From the NCBI RefSeq assembly GCF_030285365.1, contig NZ_JASVDS010000002.1, positions 310,001 through 374,000 of the forward strand: 64,000 bases of DNA. Reading direction: 5' to 3'. The stretch is from Roseateles subflavus (lineage in GTDB: Bacteria; Pseudomonadota; Gammaproteobacteria; Burkholderiales; Burkholderiaceae_C). The notes beneath the pieces are model-generated. The model did not search any database. It was not told the origin of the DNA and worked only from the letters and a program-made list of their open reading frames with translations. Shown here piece by piece: positions 28,419 to 52,718 of the stretch. Made by a program: the position numbers and the translations under genes. Position 1 is the first letter of the stretch, and every line of letters starts with the position of its first letter.

Positions 28419-29621
28419 TCAGCGCACGGTCTGGCTGATCTGCAGCGTGACGCCGGTGCTGCCCAGCGCCAGGGGGGGCGAGGCCTGGGCCTCCAGGTCT
28501 CCGGGCTGAGGCTGGGCCAGGCCGCTGCGGCTGATGCGGGCGCTGACCACCACTTGCGACGCACCAGAAAGGCGAGCCTGCGGGCTCATGGCCAGCGAGT
28601 CATCCAGCACGAAGTCGAAGGGCAGCTCGGAGGCCTTGCGCTTGAGCACCGCCAGGGGCATGCGCGCACCTTGGGCGGGGCGCGCGAAGACGAAGACTGT
28701 GTCGTCCGGCTTCACCTGCGCGGCCAGGGCCGGCGCCAGCGTCAACCGCCCCTGGATGCGCGCGCCAGCGGCGGCCTGAGGCGCCGGTGTCGCGCCAGCC
28801 GGCAGGCCACCGGCCTGCCGCGCGTCCTCGAGGCCGTTGCGGGCTTGATCCACGAGGCTGCTGCCGGGCGCTGCGCTGCGCAGCGCGCGCTCGAAGAGGC
28901 TGGCAGCCTCCGCGTATGCCTTGCGGTCGTAGGCCTCGGTGCCGGCCAGGAGCAGCGCCTTGGGCTGCTGCGGGTCGGCCGCCAGCGCCTTGCGCACCCA
29001 ATCCATGGGCACCCCGGCGAGGGTACGACCCTGCTGCAGCGCCAAAGCATCCGCGTAGTCGGCCATCAGCGCTGCATCGCCAGGACTCAACGCGACGGCC
29101 TTGGCGTAGGCGGGCAGGGCGTCCGCCTGCCGTCCGAGCGTGGCGTAGGAGCGGGCCAGCATGGCCCAGCCCTCTGGGTCCTGGGGCCGGGATTCGAGCC
29201 GCTTGGCCAGGGTCTGGATCATGTCCAGCATTTGCTCATTGCCCAGTGCGTGCGGAGCGGTCTGTGGACCCGCGGCGGGGGCACCTGAGGCGGTCTCGGG
29301 GCTGGCTGATGCCGCGGATGTGGCCGCAGACCCAGCGCCCGGCGATCCCTTCCAGGCATAGCCGGCACCTCCGACGAGGAGGACGAACGCTGCCACGCTC
29401 ACCGCTGTCATGCGGCCGATGGGGGACGTGCGACGTGCAGGCGTGGGAGAGGGGGTCTCGAAGCGTTCGGGCGCGGGCGTGCCGGACTGCAGGACGGCGG
29501 CCACCAGGGCCTGCTCCAGCTGCAGGCGCGAGCTGCGGTGCAGCTCATCAGACAGGACGCCGTCCCGGTGCAGCTGGTCGAGCTGCTCGATCTGTGCACG
29601 CAATGGCTGCACGTGGCTCAT
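28419..29621 (-). CDS. ccmI: cytochrome c maturation protein CcmI (CycH-type TPR protein)
   Basis: 400 residues from ATG 29621, preceded by AAGGAG. It has a cytoplasmic helix-rich start (LRAQIEQLDQLHRDGVLSDEL), a membrane helix (MTAVSVAAFVLLVGGAGYAW, residues about 70–90), TPR repeats (PEGWAMLARSYATLGRQADA, PKALLLAGTEAYDRKAYAEA) and a C-terminal beta domain with VFVFARPAQGARMPLAVLKR and SGASQVVVSARISRSGLA. It delivers apocytochrome to the heme ligation complex. Last gene of the large cytochrome operon. Confidence 0.92.
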   Translation of the reverse strand: MSHVQPLRAQIEQLDQLHRDGVLSDELHRSSRLQLEQALVAAVLQSGTPAPERFETPSPTPARRTSPIGRMTAVSVAAFVLLVGGAGYAWKGSPGAGSAATSAASASPETASGAPAAGPQTAPHALGNEQMLDMIQTLAKRLESRPQDPEGWAMLARSYATLGRQADALPAYAKAVALSPGDAALMADYADALALQQGRTLAGVPMDWVRKALAADPQQPKALLLAGTEAYDRKAYAEAASLFERALRSAAPGSSLVDQARNGLEDARQAGGLPAGATPAPQAAAGARIQGRLTLAPALAAQVKPDDTVFVFARPAQGARMPLAVLKRKASELPFDFVLDDSLAMSPQARLSGASQVVVSARISRSGLAQPQPGDLEAQASPPLALGSTGVTLQISQTVR

Positions 29622-29625
29622 GGGG

Positions 29626-30144
29626 TCACTCCTTGCTGGCGCGTCGCGGGGGCGTCGCGGGGTTGTCGATCGCCGGGGCTCTCGGGAGCTCGTCCGGGTC
29701 GGCCTCGAAATCCGTGTCCGGCCGGCGTGAGCGCCCCCGCAGGTGCCACCACAGGCCGCCGGCCGCGGTGCCGAGCAAGGCCGTCGGGCCGAACCACAGC
29801 AGCCAGGTGCGGGCATCCACGGGCGGGCGATAGAGCACAAAGTCGCCGTAGCGATCGGTCATGAACGTCAGCACTTCGGCCTCGCTGCGGCCGGCAGCGA
29901 GCTGCTCGCGGATCTCGCGGCGCAGGTCAACCGCCAGACCGGCGTGGGAGTCGGCGATGGTCTGGTTCTGGCATACCAGGCAGCGCAGCGCCGAGGCGAC
30001 GTGCATCATGCGTGCCTCGAGGGCGGGGTCGTCCGCCGCATCGCGGGCCTCGAGGGCGCCGGCGTCGATGACGACCGCCATGACCAGCAGGACGAGGGCG
30101 GCGAGGTGCGCCACGGGCCCGGTTCTCCGAGAGATCAGCTTCAT
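29626..30144 (-). CDS. ccmH: cytochrome c maturation thioredoxin-like reductant CcmH
   Basis: 172 residues: signal/first helix LAALVLLVMAVVIDAGALEA, the redox motif LRCLVCQNQTIADSHAGLA (CXXC reducing apocytochrome heme-binding cysteines), DLRREIREQLAAGRSEAEV, FMTDRYGDFVLYRPP, and a C-terminal helix TWLLWFGPTALLGTAAGGLWW. Full-length single-domain CcmH with CcmI as a separate gene. Overlaps ccmG by 4 bases. Confidence 0.96.
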   Translation of the reverse strand: MKLISRRTGPVAHLAALVLLVMAVVIDAGALEARDAADDPALEARMMHVASALRCLVCQNQTIADSHAGLAVDLRREIREQLAAGRSEAEVLTFMTDRYGDFVLYRPPVDARTWLLWFGPTALLGTAAGGLWWHLRGRSRRPDTDFEADPDELPRAPAIDNPATPPRRASKE

Positions 30145-30710
30145 CGGGCCTGCTCCAGGTTCTTGAGCAGCGGCTCGATGCGCTCGGCGATGACGGCCTC
30201 GGTCAGGGGCCCGACATGCTTGTATCGCACCAGACCCTGCGCGTCGATCACGAAGGTCTCCGGGACGCCGTAGACACCCCAGTCGATGCCGGCTCGGCCC
30301 TGGGCATCAAAGGCGGACGCCACATAGGGGTTGCCAAACTGGCGCAGCCAGGCCTGGCCCTCCGCGGGGCTGTCCTTGTAGTCAAGTCCGTAGATCGGGA
30401 CACGTCCACGACGGGCATAGTTCATCAACGTGGGGTGCTCTTCCCGGCAGGCCGTGCACCAGCTGGCCCAGACGTTGAGCAGCCAGACGCGCCCGCGCAG
30501 GGCGGTGGCCTGCACCCGTTGGCCGGGGTCGTCCAGGCGCGGCAGGTCCAGCGTCGGCGCCGGCTTGCCGACGAGCGGGCTGGGCACTTCTCGCGGATCC
30601 CTTGACAGACCTCGGGCGAGGAAGACCAGCAGGATGGCAAAGAGCGCGAGCGGGAGCACGACGCGCCAGCTCACGGCACCGGCCTGGGGGATTCGGGCGC
30701 GGGCGCTCAT
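30141..30710 (-). CDS. ccmG: periplasmic thiol:disulfide oxidoreductase CcmG/DsbE
   Basis: 189 residues with one N-terminal membrane anchor (VVLPLALFAILLVFLARGL) and a thioredoxin fold with active site WASWCTACREEHPTL and cis-Pro in WGVYGVPETFVID. It keeps the CXXCH cysteines of apocytochromes reduced. Overlaps ccmF and ccmH by 4 bases on each side. Confidence 0.96.
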   Translation of the reverse strand: MSARARIPQAGAVSWRVVLPLALFAILLVFLARGLSRDPREVPSPLVGKPAPTLDLPRLDDPGQRVQATALRGRVWLLNVWASWCTACREEHPTLMNYARRGRVPIYGLDYKDSPAEGQAWLRQFGNPYVASAFDAQGRAGIDWGVYGVPETFVIDAQGLVRYKHVGPLTEAVIAERIEPLLKNLEQAR

Positions 30711-32677
30711 GCCTGCGCTCCCTGGAGGGTGAGCGATGGCGACGTCGAGGCGGCGGCCTGAGGCGCCTTGCGGCGGTAGCGGGCGTCACTGGCAGCGAGC
30801 AGGCCGCCCAGCGCCATGAGCGCACAGCCTCCCCAGATCCAGTCGACAAACGGCTTGAAGTAGACGCGCAGCGTCCAGCTGCCGTCGTCCAGCTCCTCGC
30901 CGAGCGCCACGTACAGGTCACCCAGCAGGCCGGGTGCGATCGCCGCTTCCGTCATGGGATTGCGCTGGACGCGGTAGACACGCTTTTCCGGGTGCAGAAC
31001 GGTCAAGACCTGACCCTCGCGAAGGACCGCCACCTCGGCCTGCGCGGCGACGTAGTTGGGCCCCTGGACGTCCCGGACGCCGACGAAGCGGAACTGGTGC
31101 TGGCGCAGGGTGATGAGGTCGCCACTGCGGGCGCGGACGTCGCGCTCCTCTTCGTAGGTCTTCACCATGACGACGCCGATGATGAACACGGCGAGCCCTG
31201 CATGGGCCAGGCTCATGCCCCATTGCGCACGGCTGCGCTGGCGTAGGCTGCGCCACGCGCCCCCTGCGGGCCGGAGCTCCACCAGGGTGCCCAGCAGGAT
31301 CCAGAAGGCCAGGGCCAGTCCCAGGGCGGCTTGCCAGTGCATCTCTCCCGACCGCCAGCTGGCCAGGAGGCCGGCCACCACCGCAACGGCGAGGGCCCAG
31401 CGCAGGCGATGGGTCAGCTGCGGCAGCTCTGTCTTCTTCCATTGCGCGACCGGGCCGACGCTGACGAGGAACAGCAGCGGCGCCATCAGCGGCACGAAGA
31501 CGGTCTCGAAGTAGGGGACGCCGACCGAGATCTTGCCCAGGCCGAGGGCGTCCAGCACCAGGGGATACAGCGTGCCCAGCATCACGGCGGCGGTCGCGAC
31601 GAGCAGCATGACGTTGTTGAGCAGCAGCAGTGTCTCGCGAGACAGCAGCGCGAAGCGACCACCCAGGCCGACCTTGGGTGCGCGCCATGCATACAGCGCC
31701 AGGGCGCCACCGACGGTCACGCCGAGGAACATGAGAATGAAGAGCCCGCGGCGCGGATCGGAGGCGAAGGCGTGCACGGAACTCAGCACCCCGGAGCGAA
31801 CGAGGAAGGTGCCCAGCAGGGAGAGCGAGAAGCCGAGGATGGCCAGCAGCACCGTCCAGGACTTGAAGGCGCCGCGCTTCTCGGTGACGGCCAGGGAGTG
31901 GATCAGCGCCGTGCCCACGAGCCAGGGCATGAAGGAGGCGTTCTCGACCGGGTCCCAGAACCACCAGCCGCCCCAGCCGAGCTCGTAGTACGCCCACCCG
32001 CTGCCCAGGGCAATGCCGAGCGTCAGGAAGGCCCAGGCGACGGTCGTCCAGGGCCGGGTCCAGCGTGCCCAGCGCGCATCGAGCTCGCCACTCAGCAAGG
32101 CGGCGATCGCGAAGGCGAAGGCGACGGAGAAGCCCACGTAGCCCATGTAGAGCATGGGCGGGTGAATCACCATGCCGGGGTCCTGCAGCAGCGGGTTCAA
32201 GTCATTGCCATCTGGTGGCACGGGCCAGAGTCGCTCGAAGGGATTCGAGGTGAGCAGCATGAACAGCAGGAAGCCCGTCCCCACCCAGGAGAGCACGACC
32301 AGCAGGCGCAGCACCAAGGCTGGCGGCAGGTGGGCACTGAAACGGGCGACCGCAACCGTCCAGACCTGCAGCATCAGCAGCCACAGCAGCAGCGATCCCT
32401 CGTGCCCGCCCCACACGCCGGCGATCTTGTAGGCCAGCGGCAGCGCGGTGTTGGCATGCTCGGCCACGTACAGCACGGAGAAGTCATCCCTCACAAAGCA
32501 GGCGGTCAGCGCCAGAAAGGCCAGGCCGACCAGCGTCGCGATGCCGTGGGCCAGGGGCCTCACCAGCGCCTGCCAGTCGTCGCGGTCGCGGGCGAGGCCC
32601 AGCAGGGGCAGGCTGCCCTGCACGAGACTGGCAGCGAGCGCCAGCCACAACGCGAGATGTCCCAGTTCTGCCGTCAC
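30707..32677 (-). CDS. ccmF: heme lyase subunit CcmF
   Basis: 656 residues, the usual size, with about 15 membrane helices. The periplasmic WWD-type heme-handling motif is visible in GWGGWWFWDPVENASFMPWL near residue 240. The start AELGHLALWLALAASLVQG and the region KIAGVWGGHEGSLLLWLL are typical. It joins heme from holo-CcmE to apocytochrome with CcmH and CcmI. Overlaps ccmE and ccmG by 4 bases. Confidence 0.97.
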   Translation of the reverse strand: MTAELGHLALWLALAASLVQGSLPLLGLARDRDDWQALVRPLAHGIATLVGLAFLALTACFVRDDFSVLYVAEHANTALPLAYKIAGVWGGHEGSLLLWLLMLQVWTVAVARFSAHLPPALVLRLLVVLSWVGTGFLLFMLLTSNPFERLWPVPPDGNDLNPLLQDPGMVIHPPMLYMGYVGFSVAFAFAIAALLSGELDARWARWTRPWTTVAWAFLTLGIALGSGWAYYELGWGGWWFWDPVENASFMPWLVGTALIHSLAVTEKRGAFKSWTVLLAILGFSLSLLGTFLVRSGVLSSVHAFASDPRRGLFILMFLGVTVGGALALYAWRAPKVGLGGRFALLSRETLLLLNNVMLLVATAAVMLGTLYPLVLDALGLGKISVGVPYFETVFVPLMAPLLFLVSVGPVAQWKKTELPQLTHRLRWALAVAVVAGLLASWRSGEMHWQAALGLALAFWILLGTLVELRPAGGAWRSLRQRSRAQWGMSLAHAGLAVFIIGVVMVKTYEEERDVRARSGDLITLRQHQFRFVGVRDVQGPNYVAAQAEVAVLREGQVLTVLHPEKRVYRVQRNPMTEAAIAPGLLGDLYVALGEELDDGSWTLRVYFKPFVDWIWGGCALMALGGLLAASDARYRRKAPQAAASTSPSLTLQGAQA

Positions 32678-33120
32678 TCGCGGCCTCCCGTCTTGAGCGT
32701 GCCGCCGCGCTGTGCCCTGGCGAGCGCTTCGGCGGCTTCAGGTGGCATGTAGTTCTCGTCGTGCTTGGCCAGCACCTCCTGGGCGCGGAACACGCCCGCC
32801 TGGATGCGGCCTTGCGCGACGACGCCCTTGCCCTCCTTGAAGAGATCGGGCAGCAGGCCGTCGTACTCCACGGGCAGGCCATGGCGGGTGTCGCTCACCT
32901 TGAAGCGGACCTTCACGCCGTCGCGCTGCACGCTGCCGACCTCCACGAGGCCCCCGACTCGGAACACGCGGCCTTGTGGGGCCTCGCCCGTCTGGACCTG
33001 CGTCGGCGTGTAGAAAAAGACCAGATTGCTGCGAAAGGCGTTCATCACCAGGGCCACGGCCACCGCCAGACCCGTGAGCACGCCGCCGGCGATGAGCAGT
33101 CGTCGATCCCGTGCCTTCAT
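32674..33120 (-). CDS. ccmE: heme chaperone CcmE
   Basis: 148 residues from ATG 33120. N-terminal anchor (RRLLIAGGVLTGLAVAVALV), OB-fold domain (FRVGGLVEVGSVQRDGVKV) and the heme-attachment motif AKHDENYMPPEAAEAL, whose His binds heme covalently. The HXXXY form of the motif is the classical one. Overlaps ccmD and ccmF by 4 bases. Confidence 0.96.
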   Translation of the reverse strand: MKARDRRLLIAGGVLTGLAVAVALVMNAFRSNLVFFYTPTQVQTGEAPQGRVFRVGGLVEVGSVQRDGVKVRFKVSDTRHGLPVEYDGLLPDLFKEGKGVVAQGRIQAGVFRAQEVLAKHDENYMPPEAAEALARAQRGGTLKTGGRE

Positions 33121-33296
33121 GCGAGCTCCTGCTGCGTGGGCTCGGTGTCGCCCAGCGGGCTCAGCGCACGGCTCAGCCGGCGGCGGACCCGCGCCATTTC
33201 GACGGCGATCGCCAGCAGGCTCAGGCCGTAGGCAGGCCAGACGTAGAGCCCGTAGCCCTTCAGCGACAGCCATTGCATCAGTGCATGCATGTCCAT
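33117..33296 (-). CDS. ccmD: heme exporter protein CcmD
   Basis: 59 residues from ATG 33296. One membrane helix with the typical GYGLYVWPAYGLSLLAIAVE pattern and a basic cytoplasmic tail (MARVRRRLSRAL). It stabilises the CcmABCDE heme-loading complex. Two bases after ccmC, 4-base overlap with ccmE. Confidence 0.9.
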   Translation of the reverse strand: MDMHALMQWLSLKGYGLYVWPAYGLSLLAIAVEMARVRRRLSRALSPLGDTEPTQQELA

Positions 33297-33298
33297 TC

Positions 33299-34087
33299 TC
33301 AATACTCCTGGCGGCGCAGCTGGGCCACCCACTCATGGTCGTTTTCGCGCTCCAGCGCGAGGGCCCGGGCCCTGGCGAAGACGATGGCGAAGGCATAGGC
33401 CCAGGCCGCCAGCGTCATCAGCAGCAGGGCGGCCAGCATGGTGCTGGCCATGGAGGGGGCGGCATCGGCCCGGATGCTGGCGCCCTGGTGGAGCGTGTTC
33501 CACCAGCGGACCGAGAAGTAGATGATGGGCACGTTGATCGCGCCGACCAGCGCGAGCAGCGCGCCGGCCTGGTCCGAGCGGCGGGGATCTTCGATCGCCT
33601 CGGTCAGGGCGAGGTAGCCGAGGTAGAGGAAGAGCAGGATCAGCTCGCTCGTCAGCCGCGCGTCCCAGACCCACCAGGTGCCCCAGGTCGGCTTGCCCCA
33701 GCAGGCGCCGGTCCACAGCGCCAGGGCGGTCATCAAGGCGCCAGTCGGGGCGATGGCCCGCGCCAGCATGGAGGCCATGCGCACGCGCCAGGCCCATCCG
33801 ATGACGGCCCAGAAGGCCATCGCGACATACATCACCATGGAGAGCCAGGCGGTCGGCACATGGATGAACAGAATGCGGTAGGCCTCGCTCTGCACCGCAT
33901 CGGTGGGCGCGACGACGAATCCCATCCACAGGCCGAGCAGGGCCAGGACCAGGGCGCTGGCCCACAGCCAGGGCGAGCAGGCGCGGGTGAAGCGGTAGAA
34001 CCGGGCCGGTGCGGCCAGGGTGAAGAGGCGGCGTCGCGGCGCCGGGGGCGGGGCGGTGTTGCGGGCCAGGGAATGGACGTGGGACAT
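33299..34087 (-). CDS. ccmC: heme exporter/handling protein CcmC
   Basis: 262 residues from ATG 34087 with AGGAG ahead. Six membrane helices and the WWD signature GKPTWGTWWVWDARLTSELI near residue 130. It loads heme onto CcmE. The N-terminal ~30 residues (NTAPPPAPRRRLFTLA) are a cytoplasmic extension. Located between ccmB and ccmD. Confidence 0.95.
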   Translation of the reverse strand: MSHVHSLARNTAPPPAPRRRLFTLAAPARFYRFTRACSPWLWASALVLALLGLWMGFVVAPTDAVQSEAYRILFIHVPTAWLSMVMYVAMAFWAVIGWAWRVRMASMLARAIAPTGALMTALALWTGACWGKPTWGTWWVWDARLTSELILLFLYLGYLALTEAIEDPRRSDQAGALLALVGAINVPIIYFSVRWWNTLHQGASIRADAAPSMASTMLAALLLMTLAAWAYAFAIVFARARALALERENDHEWVAQLRRQEY

Positions 34088-34107
34088 GGGAACAACTCCT
34101 GCGGCGT

Positions 34108-34833
34108 TCAATCCTGGGCGATCAGCAGGGCGCGACCGATCAGCCAGGGCAGGCCCATCGCGCTGACGATGAGGTCCGCGCCCAGCAGCGAGAGATGGGG
34201 GGAGGCCGACTGCCCCGCCTGCAGGGCCTGCACGGCCGTTGTGCCGAAGACCAGGACGGGCACCATCAGCGGCAGGACGATCAGCAGGATCAGCGTGCCC
34301 GCCGAGCGCAGGCCGAGCGTGAGGGCCGCGGCCAGCCCGCCGACGAGGCTGAGGACGGGCGTCCCCAGCAGCAGCCCGGCTGACAGCATCAGCAGTTCGT
34401 CGGCCGGCAGGCCATAGAGGGCTCCGAGCACCGGGGCGATGAGCACCAGCGGTGCGCCGCTGGCAAGCCAGTGGAAGCACACCCGTGCCAGGGCGTAGTG
34501 CCACAGGGGCAGCCGCGAGAGCAGGACCTGCTCCAGCGTGCCGTCGGCCTGATCCCCGGCGAACAGCGTGGGCAGCGGCAACAGGGCGGACAGGAGGGCG
34601 GCCACCCACAGGACACCTGGAGCAATCTGCTTCAGCAGGGTCGGGTCCGGGCTCAGACCGAGGGGCTGCAGCGCAGCGGCCAGTGCGAAGAAGCCCAGGG
34701 CCAGCGCGGCATCGGCGGGCCGACGCCACAGCAGGCGGGCATCGCGCCGCAGGATCAGGTGCAGCGGGGATAACCGCGGTACGGGGCGGTGGGGTGCCGC
34801 CGCTGCCGGCAGGAGCGTGGTTGTGCGCTTCAC
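34108..34833 (-). CDS. ccmB: heme exporter membrane protein CcmB
   Basis: 241 residues, six predicted helices. Family motifs include RRDARLLWRRPADAALALGF, APGVLWVAALLSALLPL and FAGDQADGTLEQVLLS. It is the membrane subunit that works with CcmA to release holo-CcmE from CcmC. The first 20 residues are an Ala/Pro-rich extension. Overlaps ccmA by 4 bases. Confidence 0.93.
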   Translation of the reverse strand: MKRTTTLLPAAAAPHRPVPRLSPLHLILRRDARLLWRRPADAALALGFFALAAALQPLGLSPDPTLLKQIAPGVLWVAALLSALLPLPTLFAGDQADGTLEQVLLSRLPLWHYALARVCFHWLASGAPLVLIAPVLGALYGLPADELLMLSAGLLLGTPVLSLVGGLAAALTLGLRSAGTLILLIVLPLMVPVLVFGTTAVQALQAGQSASPHLSLLGADLIVSAMGLPWLIGRALLIAQD

Positions 34834-35456
34834 GCCTGTGCCCCCGGGGGATGCAGCCAGTGCTGATCGGGTTCGGCTGCCCCCGAAGGCCAGCTCAGAT
34901 GACTGCTCAGCACCGTCGCTCCGCCGCGCACATGATGCGCATACAGCTGAGCGACCAGCACGGCCACGCCGTCGTCGTCCAAGGCATCAAACGGCTCGTC
35001 CAGCACCCACAGGGCCCGCTGGTCTGCCAGGCTCAGCCGCGCCAGGCTCAGCCGTCGACGCAAGCCCTGGGACAGCATCCGGGCAGGCCGATGCCGCGAA
35101 GCCCACAGACCCCAGTGACGCAGCGCCGCCTGCACGTCGGCGTCGGCAGCGTGCAGCTGACCGAGCTGCGCCAGGAACTGCAGGTTCTCGAACAGGCTCA
35201 GGTCGTCCTTTACCGCGTTCTGGTGGCCTGCGTAGAGGATGCCGGTGTGGGGGGCGCGCCAGAGGTCGCCGCCGGCGGGTGCCGCCAGTCCGGCCAGCAC
35301 GCGCAGGAGGCTGGTCTTGCCGCTCCCATTGCGTCCGCGCAGCCACAGCGCCTGGCCTGCACGCACGCTGAAGCTCTGCGGTGCACAGACGGCGCGCCCG
35401 CCACGCTCGCAGCGCAGTTCGCGGGCGCGCGCCAGGAGGCCTGGCTCAGAGGTCAT
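34830..35456 (-). CDS. ccmA: heme exporter ATPase CcmA
   Basis: 208 residues from ATG 35456. Walker A LRGRNGSGKTSLLRVLAGL and Walker B LWVLDEPFDALDDDG are clear. The signature region reads LSQGLRRRLSLARL, the usual CcmA variant of LSGGQ. It begins within the last codons of the outer-membrane protein gene (11-base overlap), tying cytochrome maturation translationally to the porin–cytochrome genes. Confidence 0.93.
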   Translation of the reverse strand: MTSEPGLLARARELRCERGGRAVCAPQSFSVRAGQALWLRGRNGSGKTSLLRVLAGLAAPAGGDLWRAPHTGILYAGHQNAVKDDLSLFENLQFLAQLGQLHAADADVQAALRHWGLWASRHRPARMLSQGLRRRLSLARLSLADQRALWVLDEPFDALDDDGVAVLVAQLYAHHVRGGATVLSSHLSWPSGAAEPDQHWLHPPGAQA

Positions 35457-37917: not shown

Positions 37918-37928
37918 GTCGTCAGCCT

Positions 37929-40900
37929 TCAATCCCATTTGGTGTAGGTGGCGCCCTTGTTGCCCAGAGGGCGGTGGCAGCCGGATTCGGAGCAGTCGGT
38001 GGGCACGGGCGTCTTGGTTCGGTGCGTCAGGGACTTGCGCTCCAGGCTGCCCAGGTAGTTGGTGCCGCTGGCATGGCAGGCCTTGCACCAGCCCGCGCCG
38101 CTGCCCTGGCTGCCGTTGTGGTTCATCTTCTGGGCCCAGCTGGTGGTGCTGGTATGGCAGGCACTGCACTCCATGGCGCTGCCGTTGAGCAGCTGCGACT
38201 CGGGAATGTGGTTGCTCGGCTTGGCCGTGGCGCCTTGCGAGGTGTAGGCACCCGAGTGGCAGGTCTTGCACTGGCCGCTGACGCTGACATTGGCATGGAA
38301 GCGGCCATTGGCCCAGCTGGCATAGCCGCCCTTGTGGCAGCTGTCGCAGTTGCTGATGGCGACGCCGGCGAGCAGCTGGTAGGGGATGTGGCCGGCCGGC
38401 TTGCTGTCAGCCGGCGGGAAGGCGCCGCTGTGGCAGCTGCTGCACTGGTTCACCACGGTCACCTGGGTGTGGTTCCACTTCGTCGGCCGCCAGCCGCTCG
38501 TGTTGTGGCAGGCGATGCAGTTGGTGGCGCCGACGGGGATGTGGGCCGCGGGCTTGCCGGTGGCAGCGCTGCCGTTGTGGCAGCTGCTGCAGTTGGTGGC
38601 GACCGTGAAGCCGCTGTGGTCGACCTTGGCTCCGGTCCAGGTGATGGTGCTCCGGTGGCAGTTCTCGCAGACGGTCTGGCCGCTGTGCACGGGGGTGACG
38701 GGGCGGATCGAGAGGTGGCAGGTCGAGCACTGGCTGGTCACGGTCGCGCTGGCATGCAGGCGGGCCGGTGTCCAGCTGGCAAAGCCGGCCTTGTGGCAGT
38801 TGTCGCAATTGAGCGCAGCCAGCGTGCCGACCAGCTGGTAGGGCGTGTGGGTCGCCGGCTTGCCGTCCGCGGGCGGGAAGGCCCCGCTGTGACAGCTGCT
38901 GCACTGGTTGGTCACCGTGACCTGGGTGTGGTTCCACTTGGTCGGCTTCCAGCTGCTGGTGGTGTGGCAGCTGATGCAGTTGGTGGCCCCGACGGGGATG
39001 TGGGCCGAAGGCTTGCCGGTGGCGGCGCTGCCGTTGTGGCAGCTGCTGCAGTTGGTGGCGACCGTGAAGCCGCTGTGGTCCACCTTCGCGCCCGTCCAAC
39101 TGCTGGTGCTCTTGTGGCAGTTCTCGCAGACGGTTTGGCCGGTGTGCACGGGGGTGACGGGGCGGATCGAGAGGTGGCAGGTCGAGCACTGGCTGGTCAC
39201 GGTCGCGCTGGCATGCAGGCGGGCCGGTGTCCAGCTGGCAAAGCCGGCCTTGTGGCAGCTGTCGCAATTGAGCGCAGCCAGCGTGCCGACGAGCTGGTAG
39301 GGCGTGTGGGTCGCCGGCTTGCCGTCCGCGGGCGGGAAGGCCCCGCTGTGACAGCTGCTGCACTGGTTGGTCACCGTGACCTGGGTGTGGTTCCACTTGG
39401 TCGGCTTCCAGCTGCTGGTGGTGTGGCAGCTGATGCAGTTGGTGGCCCCGACGGGGATGTGGGCCGCGGGCTTGCCGGTGGCAGCGCTGCCGTTGTGGCA
39501 GCTGCTGCAGTTGGTGGCGACCGTGAAGCCGCTGTGGTCCACCTTCGCGCCCGTCCAACTGCTGGTGCTCTTGTGGCAGTTCTCGCAGACGGTTTGGCCG
39601 GTGTGCACGGGGGTGGCCGGGCGGATCGAGAGGTGACAGGTCGAGCACTGGCTGGTCACGGTCGCGCTGGCATGCAGGCGGGCTGGCGTCCAGCTGGCAA
39701 AGCCGGCCTTGTGGCAGCTGTCGCAATTGAGCGCAGCCAGCGTGCCAACGAGCTGGTAGGGCGTGTGGGTCGCCGGCTTGCCGTCCGCGGGCGGGAAGGC
39801 GCCGCTGTGGCAGCTGCTGCACTGGTTGGTCACCGTGACCTGGGTGTGGTTCCACTTGCTCGGCTTCCAGCCGGTGGTGCTGTGGCAGCTGATGCAGTTG
39901 GTGGCCCCGACGGGGATGTGGGCCGAAGGCTTGCCGGTGGCGGCGCTGCCGTTGTGGCAGCTGGCGCAGTTGGTGGCCGCGTTGAAGGTGCTGTGGTCAA
40001 CCTTGCCGGCGCTCCAACTGCTCGTGCTCTTGTGGCAGTTCTCGCAGGTGGTCTGCCCGCTGTGGAGGGTGGTACTGGGGCGAATGGGCAAATGGCAGGT
40101 CGCACATTGGCTGCTCACGCTGACGCTGGCATGAAGCTTCGCGGGCGCCCACGCTGCAAAGCCGGCCTTGTGGCAGCTGTCGCAATTGAGCGCAGCCAGC
40201 GTGCCGACGAGCTGGTAGGGCGTGTGCGTCGCCGGCTTGCCGTCCGCGGGCGGGAAGGCCCCGCTGTGGCAGCTGCTGCACTGGTTGGCAACCGTGAGCT
40301 GCGTGTGGCTCCACTTGCTGGGCTTCCAGCCGGCGGTGCTGTGGCAGCTGAAGCAGTTGGTAGCCCCGACGGGGATGTGGGCCGAGGGCTTGCCGGTGGC
40401 GGCGCTGCCGTTGTGGCAGCTGGCGCAATGGGTGGCCGCGTTGAAGGTGCTGTGGTCAACCTTGCCGGCGCTCCAGCTGCTGGTACTCGTGTGGCAACTC
40501 TCGCAAACGGTCTGCCCGCTGTGGATTGCTGTGCTTGGGCGCACGGCAAGGTGGCACGTTGCGCACTGGCTCGTCACGCTCACGTTGGCATGCAACTTGG
40601 CCGGCGCCCAGGCGACAAAGCCGGCCTTGTGACAGCTGTCGCAGTTGAGCGAGGCGAGGCTGCCGACCAGCTGGTAGGGCGTGTGGGTCGCAGGCTTGCC
40701 GTCCGCAGGAGGGAAGGCCCCACTGTGGCAGCTGCTGCACTGATTGGTGACGGTGACTTGGGTGTGATTCCACTTCGTCGGCTTCCAGCTGCTGGTGCTG
40801 TGGCAGCTGATGCAGTTGGTCGCCCCGGCGGGGATGTGGGCCGAAGGCTTGCCGGTCGCGGCGCTGCCGTTGTGACAGCTGGCGCAGTCCGTCGAGGCGT

Positions 40901-41708
40901 TGAAGCCCGCGTGGTCGACCTTGCCTGAGTTCCAGCTGCTGGTGCTCTTGTGGCAGCTTTCGCAGACCGTCTGCCCGCTATGCAGTGCGTTGGAGGGCCG
41001 CATGCTGAGGTGGCAGGCCGAGCACTGGGACGTGATGCTGGCATTGGCGTGCACCTTGGCCGGCGTCCACGACGTGAAGCCGGCCTTGTGGCAGCTGTCA
41101 CACGCCAAATTGGCCGTGGCGGCCACGGCGGTGTAGGGCACATGGGTGGCCGGCTTGCCTGTGGCCTTCTGGCCGTTGTGGCACGAGGCGCAGCTGCCGG
41201 CCGCCACACCCGCGTGATTGAAGCCGGACGCGGGCTTCCAAGCACTGGTCCGGTGGCAGCTGTCGCAGGAGGCTGTCGTGCTCAGGTGGTCTGCCGGCTT
41301 GCCTGCGGCCAGTGCGCCGTTGTGGCAGCTGGCACAAGCGCCGCCCGTGACGCCCTTGTGATCCATCTTGGCGCCGCTGAAGCTGCGCGTGTTGTGGCAG
41401 GTGTCGCACGATTGCGATGTCGGGATGTGGGTCGCCGGCTTGACCGTGTTGGTCTTGGCAAAGCGCGCGCCGCTCGTATGGCAGGCGTCGCACTCTTTGG
41501 GCGTGCCCTTGAACACGCCGCCGATGTGGCAGCTTTCGCAGCGCTGGTTCTGGTGGGTGCCCGTCAGTGCGAAGCCTGTCCGCAGGTGGTCAAACTCGCG
41601 GGGGGCGCCACTGGCGCTGAGCGCCCAGAAGGCCAGCCCTGCAAGCAGGATCAGCATCAGCAGGCGCATTCGCCGCATCAGCCCGACGACAGGGTGAGAC
41701 TGACTCAT
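37929..41708 (-). CDS. giant multiheme c-type cytochrome (46 CXXCH plus one CX4CH), six tandem hexaheme units
   Basis: 1259 residues from ATG 41708, overlapping the 24-heme gene by 4 bases. A signal peptide (LLMLILLAGLAFWALSASGA) is followed by 46 CXXCH heme-binding motifs; a 47th possible site, CSESGCH, near the C-terminus has CX4CH spacing. Hemes 1–6 form an irregular head. Hemes 7–42 fall in six units of 153 residues and six hemes each, with landmarks CDSCHKAGF, CHLSIRP, CENCHKSTSSW, CHNGSAATGKP, CISCH and CSSCHSGAFPPADGKP. Hemes 43–46 and the CX4CH form a tail. No lipobox is seen. The size and repeat form suggest a long heme wire, periplasmic or extracellular. It lies between the 24-heme cytochrome and the outer-membrane barrel. 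Substrate and direction unknown. Confidence 0.95.
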   Translation of the reverse strand: MSQSHPVVGLMRRMRLLMLILLAGLAFWALSASGAPREFDHLRTGFALTGTHQNQRCESCHIGGVFKGTPKECDACHTSGARFAKTNTVKPATHIPTSQSCDTCHNTRSFSGAKMDHKGVTGGACASCHNGALAAGKPADHLSTTASCDSCHRTSAWKPASGFNHAGVAAGSCASCHNGQKATGKPATHVPYTAVAATANLACDSCHKAGFTSWTPAKVHANASITSQCSACHLSMRPSNALHSGQTVCESCHKSTSSWNSGKVDHAGFNASTDCASCHNGSAATGKPSAHIPAGATNCISCHSTSSWKPTKWNHTQVTVTNQCSSCHSGAFPPADGKPATHTPYQLVGSLASLNCDSCHKAGFVAWAPAKLHANVSVTSQCATCHLAVRPSTAIHSGQTVCESCHTSTSSWSAGKVDHSTFNAATHCASCHNGSAATGKPSAHIPVGATNCFSCHSTAGWKPSKWSHTQLTVANQCSSCHSGAFPPADGKPATHTPYQLVGTLAALNCDSCHKAGFAAWAPAKLHASVSVSSQCATCHLPIRPSTTLHSGQTTCENCHKSTSSWSAGKVDHSTFNAATNCASCHNGSAATGKPSAHIPVGATNCISCHSTTGWKPSKWNHTQVTVTNQCSSCHSGAFPPADGKPATHTPYQLVGTLAALNCDSCHKAGFASWTPARLHASATVTSQCSTCHLSIRPATPVHTGQTVCENCHKSTSSWTGAKVDHSGFTVATNCSSCHNGSAATGKPAAHIPVGATNCISCHTTSSWKPTKWNHTQVTVTNQCSSCHSGAFPPADGKPATHTPYQLVGTLAALNCDSCHKAGFASWTPARLHASATVTSQCSTCHLSIRPVTPVHTGQTVCENCHKSTSSWTGAKVDHSGFTVATNCSSCHNGSAATGKPSAHIPVGATNCISCHTTSSWKPTKWNHTQVTVTNQCSSCHSGAFPPADGKPATHTPYQLVGTLAALNCDNCHKAGFASWTPARLHASATVTSQCSTCHLSIRPVTPVHSGQTVCENCHRSTITWTGAKVDHSGFTVATNCSSCHNGSAATGKPAAHIPVGATNCIACHNTSGWRPTKWNHTQVTVVNQCSSCHSGAFPPADSKPAGHIPYQLLAGVAISNCDSCHKGGYASWANGRFHANVSVSGQCKTCHSGAYTSQGATAKPSNHIPESQLLNGSAMECSACHTSTTSWAQKMNHNGSQGSGAGWCKACHASGTNYLGSLERKSLTHRTKTPVPTDCSESGCHRPLGNKGATYTKWD
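38349..41102 (-). repeat. six tandem 459-bp units encoding hexaheme modules
   Basis: The unit border codons for CDSCH/CDNCH recur exactly every 459 bases (ends at 38807 and at 41102, with the next copy at 38348), giving 6 x 459 = 2754 bases. The ATGCAGTTGGT landmark likewise recurs at 38512, 38971, 39430, 39889, 40348 and 40807. The units nearest the 3' end of the gene (38.3–39.7 kb) are nearly identical, the 5' ones more diverged, which suggests recent expansion by duplication. Confidence 0.95.
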
Positions 41709-43513
41709 GGGCGCGCTCCGGCAGTTCCTGGACTCACGACGGACCAACGGCTGGGCTGATGGCACTGCTCGCACCGCGGTCCGAAGCCCCGTTCGTGGAC
41801 GTCGTCCTTGAGATGGCAGCTCACGCAGGCGCGGGCCAATGCCGCCACCTTGCGTCCTGGGGGCGCCGGGTCCTTGTGGCAGGTCGAGCAAGGTAGCTTG
41901 GCGTGTGCGGCGCCCAGGGGGTAGTCCGTCTGCCGATCGTGGTCAAAGCGCCAGAGGCGCCAGGCGCGCACGTTGTGGCAACTCTCGCAAGCCGCGCCCA
42001 GGCTGGCCTTGTGGCGGTCGTCCTTGCGATGGCAGCTCAGGCAGTCGCGCGAGGCGTCACGGAAGCGCAGGCTCTGGTGGCATGCCTTGCATTCGACGGA
42101 GCCATGGGCGCCCGCCAGGCTGAAGCGGGCCTTGTTGTGATCAAAGCGTGCCGGCTTCCAGCGCGTCTCGTCATGACAACTGTCGCAGCGCTCACCCAAC
42201 TGGGTCTCGTGCTTGTCGTCCTTGCGGTGGCAAGCCACGCAGTCGCTGGGGGTCTTGCGGTAGCTGCGAACGTCGGCATGGCAGCTCTTGCAGGCGAGGC
42301 TGGCGGCCGCATGCGCACCGCGCAGGGAGAAACGGGCCCGGTTGTGATCAAAGCGCGGAGCCTGCCAGTTGCTCTCGGTGTGGCAGTCGGCACAGCGCTC
42401 GCCCAGCGTGGCCTCATGCCTGTCGTCCTTGCGATGGCAGCCCACGCAGGTCGAGGTGACCTCGCGGTAGACGAGGCTCTGGTGGCAGTCCTTGCAGCCG
42501 GCCTGCCCATGCTTGCCGAGCAGCGGGAAAGCCGTGCGGTCGTGGTCGAAGCGCTGCACGCTGCGCCAGCCTTTCTCGGCGTGGCATTGCGCGCAGTCGG
42601 TGCCCAGCGTGGCCTTGTGCTTGTCATCCTTGCGGTGGCAATCCACGCAGCCCGTGCCCGGCTTGTCCTTGTACAGATGACCGGTGTGGCAGCTGCCGCA
42701 GCGCAGCTCGCGGTGCTTCTCCCGCAGCGGGTAGCGGGTGTCGGCATCGTGCTTGAAGGTGATGTCGCGCCAGCGCTGTTCCGTGTGGCAGGTCTCGCAC
42801 TTGTCGCCGAACTGGGCCTTGTGCTTGTCGTCCTTGCGATGACAGGCCACACAGGCACTCGGTGTGTCCTTGTACTCGCGGGTCTTGTGGCAGGACTCGC
42901 ACCGCGCCGGCCCGTGGGCGCCCTTGAGTGGAAAGCGGGTCACGCTGTGGTCGAAGCGCGTCTCCTTCCAGCTCTTCTCCTCGTGGCAGTTCTGGCACTT
43001 CACGCCCAGGCCACCCTTGTGCACATCGTCCTTGCGGTGGCAGGACTGGCAGTCCTGAGGGGCGGCGCTGTACTTGCGGCCAACGGCATGGCACTTGACG
43101 CAGTCGACGGATCGATGCCCCCCGCGCAGGACATAGTCGGTTCGTGCATGGTCAAACTTGGCCTGGTCCAGCGGCGCGATGTTCATCTCACGCCCCTTGT
43201 GCTCGGTGTGGCAGCTGCGGCACGGCTGGGGCTTCTGCCGGCCATGCAGCCCGGCGTGATCGCCCAGGTCCCGGCCGACGTCCTTGTGGCAGTCGACGCA
43301 GAGCTTCTCCTGCGCCTTGCGATCGAAGGGCGTGTGGCAGCTGCGGCAGCTGTCGTCCCATTTGGCATGGGCTTGGCTGAGTACGCCGGGAGACAGCACC
43401 GACTCCATGCTTTGGGCACCCGCCGACGAAGTCAGCAACGGGCCCAGTACCAGCCCCAGTACCAGCCCCAGTACCCGGCGCATCGCTCGATCCAGCCGGG
43501 GATCGATGCTCAT
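41705..43513 (-). CDS. 24-heme c-type cytochrome
   Basis: 602 residues. Signal peptide MRRVLGLVLGLVLGPLLTSS…AGAQ, then 24 CXXCH motifs. Most follow a three-heme module of about 65 residues: CHRKDD(K/R)H…G…C, CH(T/D/A)E..W…RFDH, then a heme in the GAHG…C..CH context. The CHRKDDxH form occurs six times, and CHLKDDVH once near the end; the trailing His is a likely distal axial ligand. This resembles cytochrome c3/decaheme-type chains without homology to MtrA being provable here. It is probably the periplasmic electron carrier between the b-type membrane protein and the giant cytochrome or barrel. Starts 57 bases after the b-type gene. Confidence 0.94.
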   Translation of the reverse strand: MSIDPRLDRAMRRVLGLVLGLVLGPLLTSSAGAQSMESVLSPGVLSQAHAKWDDSCRSCHTPFDRKAQEKLCVDCHKDVGRDLGDHAGLHGRQKPQPCRSCHTEHKGREMNIAPLDQAKFDHARTDYVLRGGHRSVDCVKCHAVGRKYSAAPQDCQSCHRKDDVHKGGLGVKCQNCHEEKSWKETRFDHSVTRFPLKGAHGPARCESCHKTREYKDTPSACVACHRKDDKHKAQFGDKCETCHTEQRWRDITFKHDADTRYPLREKHRELRCGSCHTGHLYKDKPGTGCVDCHRKDDKHKATLGTDCAQCHAEKGWRSVQRFDHDRTAFPLLGKHGQAGCKDCHQSLVYREVTSTCVGCHRKDDRHEATLGERCADCHTESNWQAPRFDHNRARFSLRGAHAAASLACKSCHADVRSYRKTPSDCVACHRKDDKHETQLGERCDSCHDETRWKPARFDHNKARFSLAGAHGSVECKACHQSLRFRDASRDCLSCHRKDDRHKASLGAACESCHNVRAWRLWRFDHDRQTDYPLGAAHAKLPCSTCHKDPAPPGRKVAALARACVSCHLKDDVHERGFGPRCEQCHQPSRWSVVSPGTAGARP

Positions 43514-43570
43514 GCCAACCCCCGCGCTGGGCTGGATGGAAGCGTGTGCTGTGCTTCATGCGCCATACCG

Positions 43571-44464
43571 TCAGTACACGTGGACGGCGACGATGTGCAC
43601 GATCGCGCACAGCACCATCACGTAAACGAAGGGCACATGCAGCACGTGCCAGAGCGCGAAAAGACGCACGGCGCGCTCGTACTGGGCGACGCGCAGGCCC
43701 GTGCGGAACAGCGCCTGCACGGTGCCGCGCAGCGTCAGCCATTCCTGGTGACGGCGGCCGGGGCCCCAGTCGCGTTCGCGCGACCGAAGCCGCAGGGCCG
43801 TGTGCAGGGCGTGCAGGCACTGTGTCTCCGTACGCCATCGCACCCAGGGGAGGACGACGAAGGCCTGGAGCCAGCCGGCACGCTCCAATGCCGCGGGGCT
43901 GACGCGAGCCTCGAAGCGGCTGATCATGGCTTCAGCCACCGGGGCGAAGGCAAGGGCACGGTGTGCCTCGTCCCGGTTCAACCCCAGTTCGTCTCGCACC
44001 GATTGCAGACCCTGAAGACCGCCGCTGAGTCCGCGGTGGGTGCGCAGGTACAGGAATCGACCCACCACGCCGCTGCCGGCCACGATCAACATGCTGTAAA
44101 GCGCCACGCCGGCGTTCAGGGAACCAATGGTGAAGGCGCAGTGCAGCAGGATCAGCACGGGCCCGGCGATGCCCAGCACCATGTGGACGGCGAACCAGTC
44201 GCGCGCAGCCCCCCAGCGCTGCAGCCGCCGCCAGCGCTTTCGCAAGGGATAGGCGAACAGCAGCAGCATGGCCACGCCGCCCGAGACGCCGAGCCAGTAG
44301 CCCAGGGTGGACGCTGCCGTCAGCTGCCAGTGGCGCACGGTCGCCCACGCACCGCCGACGAGCAGCGCCAGCGCCAGGTAGAGCCAGCGATCTCGGCCCA
44401 CCGGCGTGGCGATGCTGTCCCTGAATCTGGGGGGCTGACGGGAAAGGACCTCGGGCGTGTTCAT
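43571..44464 (-). CDS. integral membrane b-type cytochrome-like protein, probable quinone-linked electron entry/exit
   Basis: 297 residues from ATG 44464; upstream in-frame ATGs exist and no start has a strong ribosome site. Hydrophobic helices at about residues 25–45 (WLYLALALLVGGAWATV), 52–75 (LGYWLGVSGGVAMLLLFAYP), 90–112 (HMVLGIAGPVLILLHCAF), 118–140 and 265–297. Paired histidines 13 apart in HMVLGIAGPVLILLH, and several in HVLHVPFVYVMVLCAIVHIV, fit b-heme ligation across two helices. A large cytoplasmic loop lies between (residues about 150–260). It opens the cytochrome operon, so it likely links the quinone pool to the periplasmic hemes. Confidence 0.75.
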   Translation of the reverse strand: MNTPEVLSRQPPRFRDSIATPVGRDRWLYLALALLVGGAWATVRHWQLTAASTLGYWLGVSGGVAMLLLFAYPLRKRWRRLQRWGAARDWFAVHMVLGIAGPVLILLHCAFTIGSLNAGVALYSMLIVAGSGVVGRFLYLRTHRGLSGGLQGLQSVRDELGLNRDEAHRALAFAPVAEAMISRFEARVSPAALERAGWLQAFVVLPWVRWRTETQCLHALHTALRLRSRERDWGPGRRHQEWLTLRGTVQALFRTGLRVAQYERAVRLFALWHVLHVPFVYVMVLCAIVHIVAVHVY

Positions 44465-44610
44465 GCGGCGCAGTGTGTGCAAGGCCCCGCTACGGCGCAT
44501 TAAGCGCGTGAACATTTGTAACGGGCCTGGACTGCTGCCCGGTGCCGGCCCGGCGTTTCGTGCGCGCCGCACCAGCCTTGCGGCAGATCGAGCAGCCTGA
44601 GGGGACTTCC

Positions 44611-44626
44611 TGAAGTTCAGATGAAG
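44611..44626 (-). promoter_or_regulatory. second candidate operator, TGAAG-N6-TGAAG (opposite orientation)
   Basis: TGAAG at 44611 and 44622, again 11 bases apart. On the minus strand this reads CTTCA-N6-CTTCA, so the two sites face each other across about 24 bases. The minus-strand orientation would suit control of the cytochrome operon. Confidence 0.55.
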
Positions 44627-44649
44627 GGTGCGGCAATGGTTGGCAACAA

Positions 44650-44665
44650 CTTCATCCGGTCTTAA
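44650..44665 (+). promoter_or_regulatory. candidate operator CTTCA-N6-CTTAA upstream of regulator and cytochrome operon
   Basis: Half-sites CTTCA (44650) and CTTAA (44661), 11 bases apart. The context GGCAACAACTTCATCCGG closely matches the site at 27022. It lies in the 225-base divergent gap between the b-type cytochrome gene and the orphan regulator. Confidence 0.6.
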
Positions 44666-44689
44666 GCCCAGCCGCGGAGGCTGCGGCTC

Positions 44690-45358
44690 GTGAATGCAGC
44701 AGTACCCCTCACTCAAGTGCTCGTGCACGCACGGGATCCCGCCATCGTGCAGGTCTGCCGCCAGGTCTGCGACCAGCTGCGGTGGCATGTCCGAACCGGC
44801 GGCATCGAGCCGCCCGCGCTGCTCGGGGGCGACGCCATGCTGCATGTGGTGGAGGACCATGCCGCTCGGGCCTTGCCCCGGAGCCTGGGGCCGCCCACGG
44901 CCCTGCTGGTCTGTGACGCAGGCGCCCTGCAGCGCCTGGTCGGTGGTGGCACGCACGCCTTTGGTGCCTATCAGCTCCGACCGATGCGCGCCGAGCGCTT
45001 GCAGGAGCAGCTCTGTCGCCTGCGACTGGGACAGGCGGGCAATCTCGCTCAATGCGTGCGCGTCGGGCCCTTGGTCCTGGACGCCATGGACCGCCGCGTC
45101 GTGTGGCAGGACCAGGTGCTGAGCCTGACGTGGCGGGAGTACGAGTTGTTGCACGTGCTCGTGCGCCACAGGGGCGCCGTGGTGGCGCGCGACCGGATCG
45201 AGGCGGCGATGTACCGCTGGGGACAGGAGCTCGGCAGCAACACGATCGAGGTCTTCGTCCACGCCTTGCGCAGCAAGACCCATCCCGCCCTGATCACCAC
45301 GGTGCGAGGGGAGGGCTACCAGTTGAACGACCTTGAACTGGCCGGGCTTCGCCACTGA
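44690..45358 (+). CDS. orphan winged-helix regulator with degenerate receiver domain
   Basis: 222 residues from GTG 44690, preceded by GGAGG at 9 bases. The C-terminal half is a complete OmpR-type DNA-binding domain (VLSLTWREYELLHVLVRHRG, LGSNTIEVFVHALRSKT, ITTVRGEGYQLND). The N-terminal ~115 residues have the length and rough pattern of a receiver (VLVHARDPAIVQVCRQVC…AYQLRPMRAERLQEQL) but lack the acidic pair after strand 1 and a convincing phospho-Asp, so it is likely phosphorylation-independent. No kinase is adjacent. Divergent from the cytochrome operon, with the operator repeats between. Confidence 0.85.
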   Translation: MNAAVPLTQVLVHARDPAIVQVCRQVCDQLRWHVRTGGIEPPALLGGDAMLHVVEDHAARALPRSLGPPTALLVCDAGALQRLVGGGTHAFGAYQLRPMRAERLQEQLCRLRLGQAGNLAQCVRVGPLVLDAMDRRVVWQDQVLSLTWREYELLHVLVRHRGAVVARDRIEAAMYRWGQELGSNTIEVFVHALRSKTHPALITTVRGEGYQLNDLELAGLRH

Positions 45359-50580: not shown

Positions 50581-50589
50581 GGAATCATC

Positions 50590-52707: not shown

Positions 52708-52718
52708 GGAGATCCATC

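Follow-up and report, generated by a model that had tools for sequence, protein, structure and literature searches.

We analysed a window of 64,000 nucleotides from Roseateles subflavus (RefSeq assembly GCF_030285365.1, contig NZ_JASVDS010000002.1, positions 310,001 to 374,000 of the forward strand), which carries an apparent extracellular electron transfer (EET) island; positions below are those of the window. The island comprises 13 genes in one minus-strand run from 44464 to 28419, which encode, in order, an inner-membrane protein (IMP), a 24-heme cytochrome, a 46-heme cytochrome, a predicted outer-membrane porin, and the cytochrome maturation proteins CcmABCDEFGHI (Table 1). Adjacent genes mostly overlap by 4 to 11 bases and otherwise lie a few bases apart, with the widest gaps between the IMP and 24-heme cytochrome genes (57 bases) and between ccmB and ccmC (20 bases). 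The ccmI end of the run is adjoined by a gene for a protein with flavin adenine dinucleotide (FAD) and iron-sulfur (Fe-S) domains. An earlier, sequence-only reading of this DNA had listed a b-type protein, 24- and 46/47-heme cytochromes, a TPR/barrel protein, and nine ccm genes, all of which are present on the minus strand. It had placed the Fe-S flavoprotein and the regulators as flanks; their positions hold, but the flavoprotein, which tracks the IMP, appears to be a core part.

The gene order, heme loads, barrel, and IMP motifs all agree with the porin-cytochrome conduit cluster PCC3, and the island very probably belongs to it, as the sequence-only reading had suggested as a possibility. 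PCC3 was described by He et al. 2017 (PMC5566968) and is known from Leptothrix, Sideroxydans, and the Gallionellaceae; this and the other published accounts are cited here from extracts of their texts. The described IMP has about 300 residues, two WX3HX13H motifs, an SGXXG motif, and five transmembrane helices, with HX13H located on helices 3 and 5. The reported median heme numbers are 21 for the periplasmic and 34 for the extracellular cytochrome, the latter being described with Ser/Thr/Ala/Gly-rich repeats. The four-gene core of the island matches this description in IMP length and motifs, in a periplasmic cytochrome of 24 hemes and an extracellular one of 46 hemes, in a barrel porin, and in the clustering of the genes. 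The same core was found at 13 of 16 other loci of the order Burkholderiales, with the porin of L043 and the outer cytochrome of L047 split over several frames; of the remaining three loci, L044 and L046 end at a contig edge before the porin, and no porin was found at L057. Two points named beforehand as able to overturn the sequence-only reading, the fold of the outer-membrane protein and the recurrence of its neighbours, came out as a barrel in the structural model and as neighbours shared across genomes.

Analysis of the IMP revealed two WX3HX13H motifs (at 94 and 276) and the SGXXG motif as SGVVG at 131. Residues W90, H94, H108, S131, G132, G135, W272, H276, and H290 are invariant in all 68 aligned rows; this alignment, the 49-row porin alignment, and the heme counts include duplicate loci (L085, L109, and L129 come from the genomes of L045, L047, and L052). 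The AlphaFold model (predicted local distance difference test [pLDDT] of 87.1) contains helices at residues 22-46, 53-68, 87-109, 116-146, and 235-296, which is compatible with the five-helix scheme of PCC3, while a simple hydropathy scan gave four peaks, compared with the five helices described. Residues 72-94 contain seven Lys/Arg against one Asp/Glu, and residues 135-273 contain 22 against 12, from which we infer that H94 and H276 would lie on the cytoplasmic side of the membrane and H108 and H290 on the periplasmic side. The IMP is thus predicted to hold one b-heme per membrane leaflet, with H94/H276 and H108/H290 as the ligand pairs. The IMP had no Pfam or NCBIfam match at E ≤ 0.001, the ferric-reductase family was absent among the Pfam matches of the 68 IMPs, and a sequence search of solved structures returned nothing credible.

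The AlphaFold model of the porin, built from 49 rows (pLDDT of 83.3), consists of periplasmic beta-rich and alpha/beta domains, a TPR segment (residues 276-361), and a beta-barrel of about 22 strands (residues 381-829). A Foldseek search with this model matched 339 chains at E ≤ 0.001, and the 50 matches listed were all outer-membrane barrels. The protein is therefore predicted to be an outer-membrane beta-barrel, whose first ~360 residues, including the TPRs, are presumably periplasmic. A SPOR domain was recognised by Pfam in 10 of the 49 porins, none of which matched the Pfam MtrB_PioB family at E ≤ 0.05, and a sequence search of solved structures with the porin gave matches to TPR only.

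The heme motifs of the two cytochromes far exceed chance, since 1000 residue shuffles gave at most four CXXCH motifs for the 46-heme protein and three for the 24-heme protein. Pfam and NCBIfam identified cytochrome c7/c3-type repeats in the cytochromes. The 24-heme cytochrome is mainly composed of modules of about 67 residues with three hemes each and shares 43-55% identity with its counterparts at the 16 other loci; a sequence search of solved structures gave no match to it. The periplasmic heme number was 21, 24, or 27 in 57 of 64 scored rows, four more rows being set aside as incomplete. Among the other seven rows, numbers of 14, 16, 18, and 20 belong to sequences that reach a contig or locus edge, and numbers of 9, 10, and 12 to internal ones. 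These numbers fit whole three-heme modules and a constrained span, and the identical values 21, 24, and 27 are given for the periplasmic cytochrome of the Gallionellaceae (PMC10734462). The 46-heme cytochrome is rich in Ser (12.8%), Ala (12.5%), Thr (11.3%), and Gly (7.7%) and is built on a six-heme repeat of 153 residues. At the DNA level, its gene contains a 459-bp tandem repeat (38313-41099; 6.1 copies, 88% matches) with six heme motifs per copy, and heme numbers vary widely among relatives, as if the outer cytochrome had grown by DNA duplication.

Comparison with models of known conduit cytochromes gave different results for the two proteins. The 46-heme protein scored highest with Cytochrome_C7 (244.5 bits), and passed the Pfam model PF22113 for MtrC/MtrF domains II-IV (145 bits, cut-off 30) via several repeated stretches and the MtrA/DmsE model TIGR03508 (212.7 bits, cut-off 192.2), likewise via repeated stretches, but remained under the cut-off of the OmcA/MtrC decaheme model TIGR03507 (54.9 against 209.3); its MtrC/MtrF and MtrA/DmsE scores may be an effect of the repeated heme motifs. 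The 24-heme cytochrome fell far under the decaheme cut-off of TIGR03508 (19 bits against 192). The sequence-only reading, which had seen no obvious homology to MtrA, MtrB, or MtrC, is borne out for the porin against MtrB and for the 24-heme protein against MtrA, but not quite for the 46-heme protein. Its likening of the island to MtrCAB/PioAB fails for the porin and MtrA and is left with the MtrC/MtrF domain match of the 46-heme protein. Membership in MtrAB/MtoAB/PioAB was rejected, given the 49 porins without an MtrB/PioB match and a periplasmic cytochrome of 24 hemes instead of a decaheme MtrA. PCC4 was rejected as well, because the 24- and 46-heme cytochromes differ from its periplasmic set with 4, 5, and 10 hemes.

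In the FAD/Fe-S protein, an N-terminal hydrophobic segment precedes RRRRER, and two Fe-S motifs are combined with a FAD/NAD(P) domain resembling YpdA and thioredoxin reductase, the proteins also found in a sequence search of solved structures. The position of RRRRER after the hydrophobic segment suggests that the FAD/Fe-S domain would face the cytoplasm. Among 93 rows, from which identical ones were dropped, the NAD(P)-type motif VGGGD[SA]AxEAA was present in 92. In the second Fe-S motif, all 93 rows carry His in place of Cys at the second position; the same position of the first motif is Ser in 73, Ala in 10, Cys in 9, and Gly in 1. His-ligated Fe-S clusters are known in other proteins.

To follow the distribution of this protein, 300 genomes of the order, including that of R. 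subflavus, were searched separately with the IMP and the FAD/Fe-S protein. The FAD/Fe-S protein was found in 17 genomes from eight families, and strong IMP matches were found in the same 17 genomes and in no others. At a threshold of 1e-60, all 17 FAD/Fe-S protein matches were better than 1e-213; the 17 IMP matches reached E ≤ 2e-36, and the next had E of 3.7e-13. A further 22 genomes had weak IMP matches (E from 3.7e-13 to 2.2e-4), and none of them reached 1e-60 for the FAD/Fe-S protein. The protein is encoded at all 16 PCC3 loci outside the window. In a scan of named genomes, the best 80 of 569 confirmed loci were analysed, and the linkage counts hold for these nearest 80: an IMP, a porin, or a cytochrome with at least eight hemes was seen at 69 of them, and at 32 of the 33 with more than 9 kb on both sides. 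Ten of the 11 loci without conduit genes have incomplete flanks, the eleventh (L059) being full. Among 96 loci, where both genes were seen, the FAD/Fe-S gene lies mostly on the strand opposite to the IMP gene (60 loci, against nine); in the window it is found at the ccmI end instead. In a phylum-wide sample of 398 genomes, seven matches reached 1e-60, of which six were full-length and all at PCC3 genes; three of these six genomes (G000, G264, and G024) also belong to the order sample. The coincidence of the two genome lists, together with the locus linkage, is the reason why the FAD/Fe-S protein appears to be a core part of PCC3. Two loci stood apart in these scans. At L059 (9869-12449), the FAD/Fe-S gene is followed by ccmI, with no conduit genes found within about 10 kb on either side; the seventh phylum match (G326, L199 7908-10250) is partial and lies in a different protein of 780 residues, with no multiheme gene or IMP found in 20 kb.

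The published PCC3 accounts speak of four genes. The term flavoprotein does not occur in the main texts, as distinct from supplements and figures, of PMC5566968, PMC8788666, PMC12442390, and PMC13386937, and a literature search for PCC3 with flavoprotein or NADPH returned nothing beyond He et al. 2017.

The weak IMP matches were found to belong to another gene cluster (L200-L208, L212-L218, and L220), in which both IMP motifs are present in 13 of the 14 sequences read. This sister cluster contains a decaheme protein (with an FHA domain in L208, the locus checked), a tetraheme cytochrome, and, at most loci, a decaheme protein of about 1300 residues (with LVIVD repeats in L208, again the one checked). 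In eight of nine genomes covered that far (the exception being G003), it also encodes an 800-residue protein with YpdA-like FAD and cNMP-binding domains and two ferredoxin motifs, its domains being assigned by Pfam in L208. This protein scored from 1e-54 to 1e-59 with the FAD/Fe-S protein profile of PCC3, just under the threshold. In both IMP-type systems, the IMP would thus have a FAD/ferredoxin partner, and the two partners differ in build. At nine of 13 loci, the sister IMP gene is accompanied by several ccm genes, and at one more, on a short contig, by ccmI alone. In G189, an 8-heme protein lies beside the IMP, and no FAD/ferredoxin protein was found in the 20 kb read. An HbpS-like protein is encoded at the sister loci L201 and L208. 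He et al. (PMC5566968) refer to "other redox-active proteins" and to redox genes next to the PCC4 tetraheme cytochrome, which may correspond to the sister FAD/ferredoxin gene.

The ccm genes of the island form a complete System I set, ccmABCDEFGHI, in which ccmB and ccmE matched specific families and ccmF and ccmG scored over the NCBIfam cut-offs. The sequence-only reading had called the maturation system self-contained. All nine genes are there and the only CcmB of the genome lies in the island, but the genome also has one ResB (System II) elsewhere (C12:251102-253111). In a sample of nine genomes of the same family, ResB was matched in all nine (weakly and partially in G264) and CcmB in three. 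A tree of 42 CcmF rows placed the island CcmF in a 15-row clade with support of 98/100, in which 14 members come from FAD/Fe-S or PCC3 loci, including those of Rhodoferax, Aquabacterium, Rubrivivax, Sphaerotilus, and others. The remaining member comes from G264, which is also a PCC3 genome and belongs to the same family, but this CcmF is not linked to such a locus; the CcmF proteins of L045 and L048 are linked, yet fall outside the clade. L095 (no match) and L168 (23% cover) were dropped from the tree, L154, L158, and L163 are repeats of L048, L045, and the R. subflavus locus, and the tree excludes a second G264 CcmF as well as linked loci with ccmF beyond the DNA covered. G658, of the same family, has the order porin-ccmABCEFGHI followed by the FAD/Fe-S gene. 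Rhodoferax lacus and Sphaerotilus mobilis likewise carry porin, ccm, and FAD/Fe-S genes at a single locus, with the IMP and cytochrome genes beyond the DNA covered. The clade and this locus suggest that the association with ccm is recurrent and, in one lineage, stable.

At least three of ccmA-H were present at 16 of the 80 named loci and one or two at six more, three of which have a lone CcmA match that might instead be a different ABC protein. At 12 of the 80, a ccmI-like gene was the sole ccm gene in the DNA covered, and four of these 12 show no conduit gene. The linked set is thus not unique to the island, as shown by these 16 loci and by the related IMP systems that also have ccm. Nor are linked ccm genes always dedicated: among 20 relatives, some with incomplete assemblies, full-length ResB was found in five of the 17 that have ccm genes at the locus and in none of the three that do not. 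CcmB occurs in 187 of the 300 order genomes, and 16 of the 17 PCC3 genomes have strong CcmB and CcmF matches. A requirement of PCC3 for System I is not claimed, given this background and the PCC3 genome G216. The matches of G216 (L057) to CcmB (8.8e-27), CcmF (3.2e-8), and ResB are all weak. A literature search on PCC3 or porin-cytochrome conduits with ccm or maturation did not show the linkage among the matches listed, seen as extracts; CcmH/NrfF and CcmH/NrfG appear in a section of PMC10734462 on genes distinct to iron oxidisers.

Table 1. Genes of the island and its flanks, with window coordinates and the basis of each assignment.
Feature	Coordinates	Strand	Basis
IMP, 297 aa, predicted diheme b-type	43571..44464	-	Motifs, 68-row alignment, AlphaFold
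Periplasmic multiheme cytochrome, 602 aa, 24 CXXCH	41705..43513	-	Motif count; signal peptide by eye
Presumed extracellular multiheme cytochrome, 1259 aa, 46 CXXCH and 1 CX4CH	37929..41708	-	Motif count, repeat analysis
Predicted outer-membrane porin, 830 aa	35446..37938	-	AlphaFold, Foldseek, Pfam TPR
ccmA (ABC ATPase)	34830..35456	-	Generic ABC_tran family and position
ccmB	34108..34833	-	PF03379, 178 bits
ccmC	33299..34087	-	General PF01578 Cytochrom_C_asm and position
ccmD, 59 aa	33117..33296	-	Open reading frame by translation; assigned by position and single hydrophobic segment
ccmE	32674..33120	-	PF03100
ccmF	30707..32677	-	TIGR00353, 755 bits; tree
ccmG (DsbE-type thioredoxin)	30141..30710	-	TIGR00385, above cut-off
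ccmH (NrfF-like)	29626..30144	-	TIGR03147, 97.5 bits, under cut-off; position
ccmI (CycH/NrfG-like TPR protein)	28419..29621	-	NF007692, 44 bits, under cut-off; aligned relatives
Membrane-anchored 2x(Fe-S) ferredoxin and YpdA/thioredoxin-reductase-like FAD/NAD(P) protein	27102..28397	+	Pfam, NCBIfam; start codon chosen by the analyst
Divergent OmpR-type DNA-binding regulator	44690..45358	+	Pfam Trans_reg_C only, no receiver domain recognised
OmpR-family response regulator	26278..26934	-	By eye from translation; tied to island by position only
Sensor histidine kinase	24893..26473	-	NCBIfam kinase matches, the 25 listed all under cut-off; tied to island by position only

The divergent regulator beside the IMP gene may be a candidate controller of the operon. 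Genes resembling the potassium transporter kdpABC (48784-53297, by eye) lie near the island and are apparently unrelated to it.

Building on the observed parts, their order, motifs, linkage, and the ccm clade, we propose the following electron-transfer steps, topology, direction, and substrate. In the cytoplasm, the FAD/Fe-S protein would exchange electrons both with the IMP and with NAD(P)H (or ferredoxin). The two b-hemes of the IMP, one per leaflet, would relay electrons across the inner membrane to the periplasm in the fashion of NADPH oxidases and ferric reductases. The 24-heme cytochrome would serve as a periplasmic wire that extends toward the porin and may be held by the TPR extension of the latter, and at the outer face the porin would hand the electrons to the 46-heme cytochrome in contact with an extracellular partner. 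The path would accordingly run from NAD(P)H or ferredoxin through FAD/Fe-S, IMP, 24 hemes, porin, and 46 hemes to the outside. The ccm operon would be an additional System I line that supplies each conduit with about 70 hemes, assuming a single copy of either cytochrome, and System II could serve the other c-type cytochromes of the cell. To reduce NAD(P)+ with electrons taken directly from Fe(II), working against the membrane potential, would be strongly uphill. Because of this, and because both PCC3 clusters of Sideroxydans ES-1 decrease on Fe(II) (PMC8788666), outward flow is favoured. We give a probability of about 0.5 to this reading, a PCC3 conduit coupled to NAD(P)H or ferredoxin that exports rather than imports electrons and is joined by a System I line.

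Several observations weigh against the export reading. A Foldseek search with the IMP model gave no match to a solved fold at E ≤ 0.001 (the best being cytochrome b561, E of 1.1), so its predicted heme binding rests on the motifs. The locus linkage does not prove that electrons pass between the FAD/Fe-S protein and the IMP, and L059 has the FAD/Fe-S gene with full flanks and no conduit genes, possibly as a remnant or rearranged locus. The exact match of the genome lists holds for the PCC3-type protein and not for the wider family, because the sister scores nearly reach the threshold. For the maturation line, a dedicated ccm does not hold as a general rule: full-length ResB was found in only five of the 17 relatives with ccm at the locus, and Rhodoferax lacus, in which ResB is lacking, has one CcmF, in the position of the linked gene. 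At many PCC3 loci, moreover, ccm genes are not linked. When Sideroxydans CL21 cells become able to oxidise iron, the IMP of their PCC3 copy 2 increases significantly, which favours uptake, while copy 1 falls under the same change (PMC12442390). The literature, as far as the extracts go, calls PCC3 functionally unverified or untested.

The best-placed alternative, possible but clearly less probable than export, is that PCC3 is an uptake conduit, in which electrons from Fe(II), Mn(II), or another donor reach the quinone pool through the IMP and the FAD/Fe-S protein is an accessory. It follows the model of He et al. 2017 (PMC5566968) and agrees with the presence of PCC3 in a number of iron oxidisers (PMC10734462, PMC13386937) and with the response of CL21 copy 2, but the linked NAD(P)-type flavoprotein has no place in it, and the decreases of both ES-1 clusters and of CL21 copy 1 run the other way. 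An electron store, or a sink that unloads surplus reductant onto metals, oxyanions, or humics but does not support growth, is improbable as the main role of the wire: the roughly 70 hemes per complex, the DNA repeat and variable heme number of the outer cytochrome, and the capacitor idea raised in PMC10734462 would suit it, but the constrained periplasmic cytochrome and the paired cytoplasmic protein are left unexplained. That the FAD/Fe-S protein instead serves cytochrome maturation, by thiol or heme-iron reduction, is very unlikely despite its YpdA/thioredoxin-reductase likeness and its place beside ccmI in some loci, the window included, because it tracks the IMP and not ccm (17 of 300 genomes, against 187 with CcmB), is retained where no ccm is linked, and has two Fe-S motifs.

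Going beyond the export reading, we suggest, as a tentative idea, that PCC3 may not be a quinone-linked iron oxidase but may work across the membrane as an NAD(P)H (or ferredoxin):extracellular oxidoreductase, comparable to a bacterial NADPH oxidase equipped with a ~70-heme wire. The FAD/Fe-S protein, with its invariant His, would then be the missing input subunit, the sister system would have evolved the same coupling with its own, differently built FAD/ferredoxin protein, and System I would have been recruited repeatedly for loading the wire. PCC3 is spread among iron-cycling and other Proteobacteria, and the linked FAD/Fe-S gene offers a specific, testable subunit candidate as well as a simple annotation marker. 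The recurrent link to a separate System I clade hints that wires with so many hemes may depend on maturation capacity of their own, a point relevant to expressing such cytochromes in other hosts.

In comparison with known systems, the island shares with PCC3 the IMP, periplasmic and extracellular multiheme cytochromes, and porin in a single cluster, the IMP motifs, and the high heme loads. It differs by the nine ccm genes in the same run and by the FAD/Fe-S protein, neither of which appears in the extracts of the PCC3 accounts, where the ccmI-like gene of relatives' loci is not mentioned either. The FAD/Fe-S protein as a core part, the ccm clade, and the TPR extension of the porin are thus new with respect to those accounts, as far as the extracts go. 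PCC4 has the same IMP motif set according to He et al. 2017 (PMC5566968), but its periplasmic cytochromes carry 4, 5, and 10 hemes and it has no extracellular multiheme cytochrome. With MtrCAB/MtoAB/PioAB, the island has in common a barrel and multiheme cytochromes spanning the outer membrane, whereas its barrel bears a periplasmic TPR extension and its inner-membrane partner is b-type instead of CymA-like. The transmembrane domain of NADPH oxidases and ferric reductases has two HX13H pairs for two b-hemes. He et al. compared the IMP with this domain (PMC5566968), and the likeness extends to the proposed cytoplasmic flavin partner; in the island, however, the flavin domain resides in a distinct YpdA-like protein that also bears Fe-S motifs, and the IMP showed no fold match. 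Like Ccm System I with NrfEFG-type heme lyases, the island has a complete ccmABCDEFGHI, but this set sits in an EET operon of a genome that also has System II.

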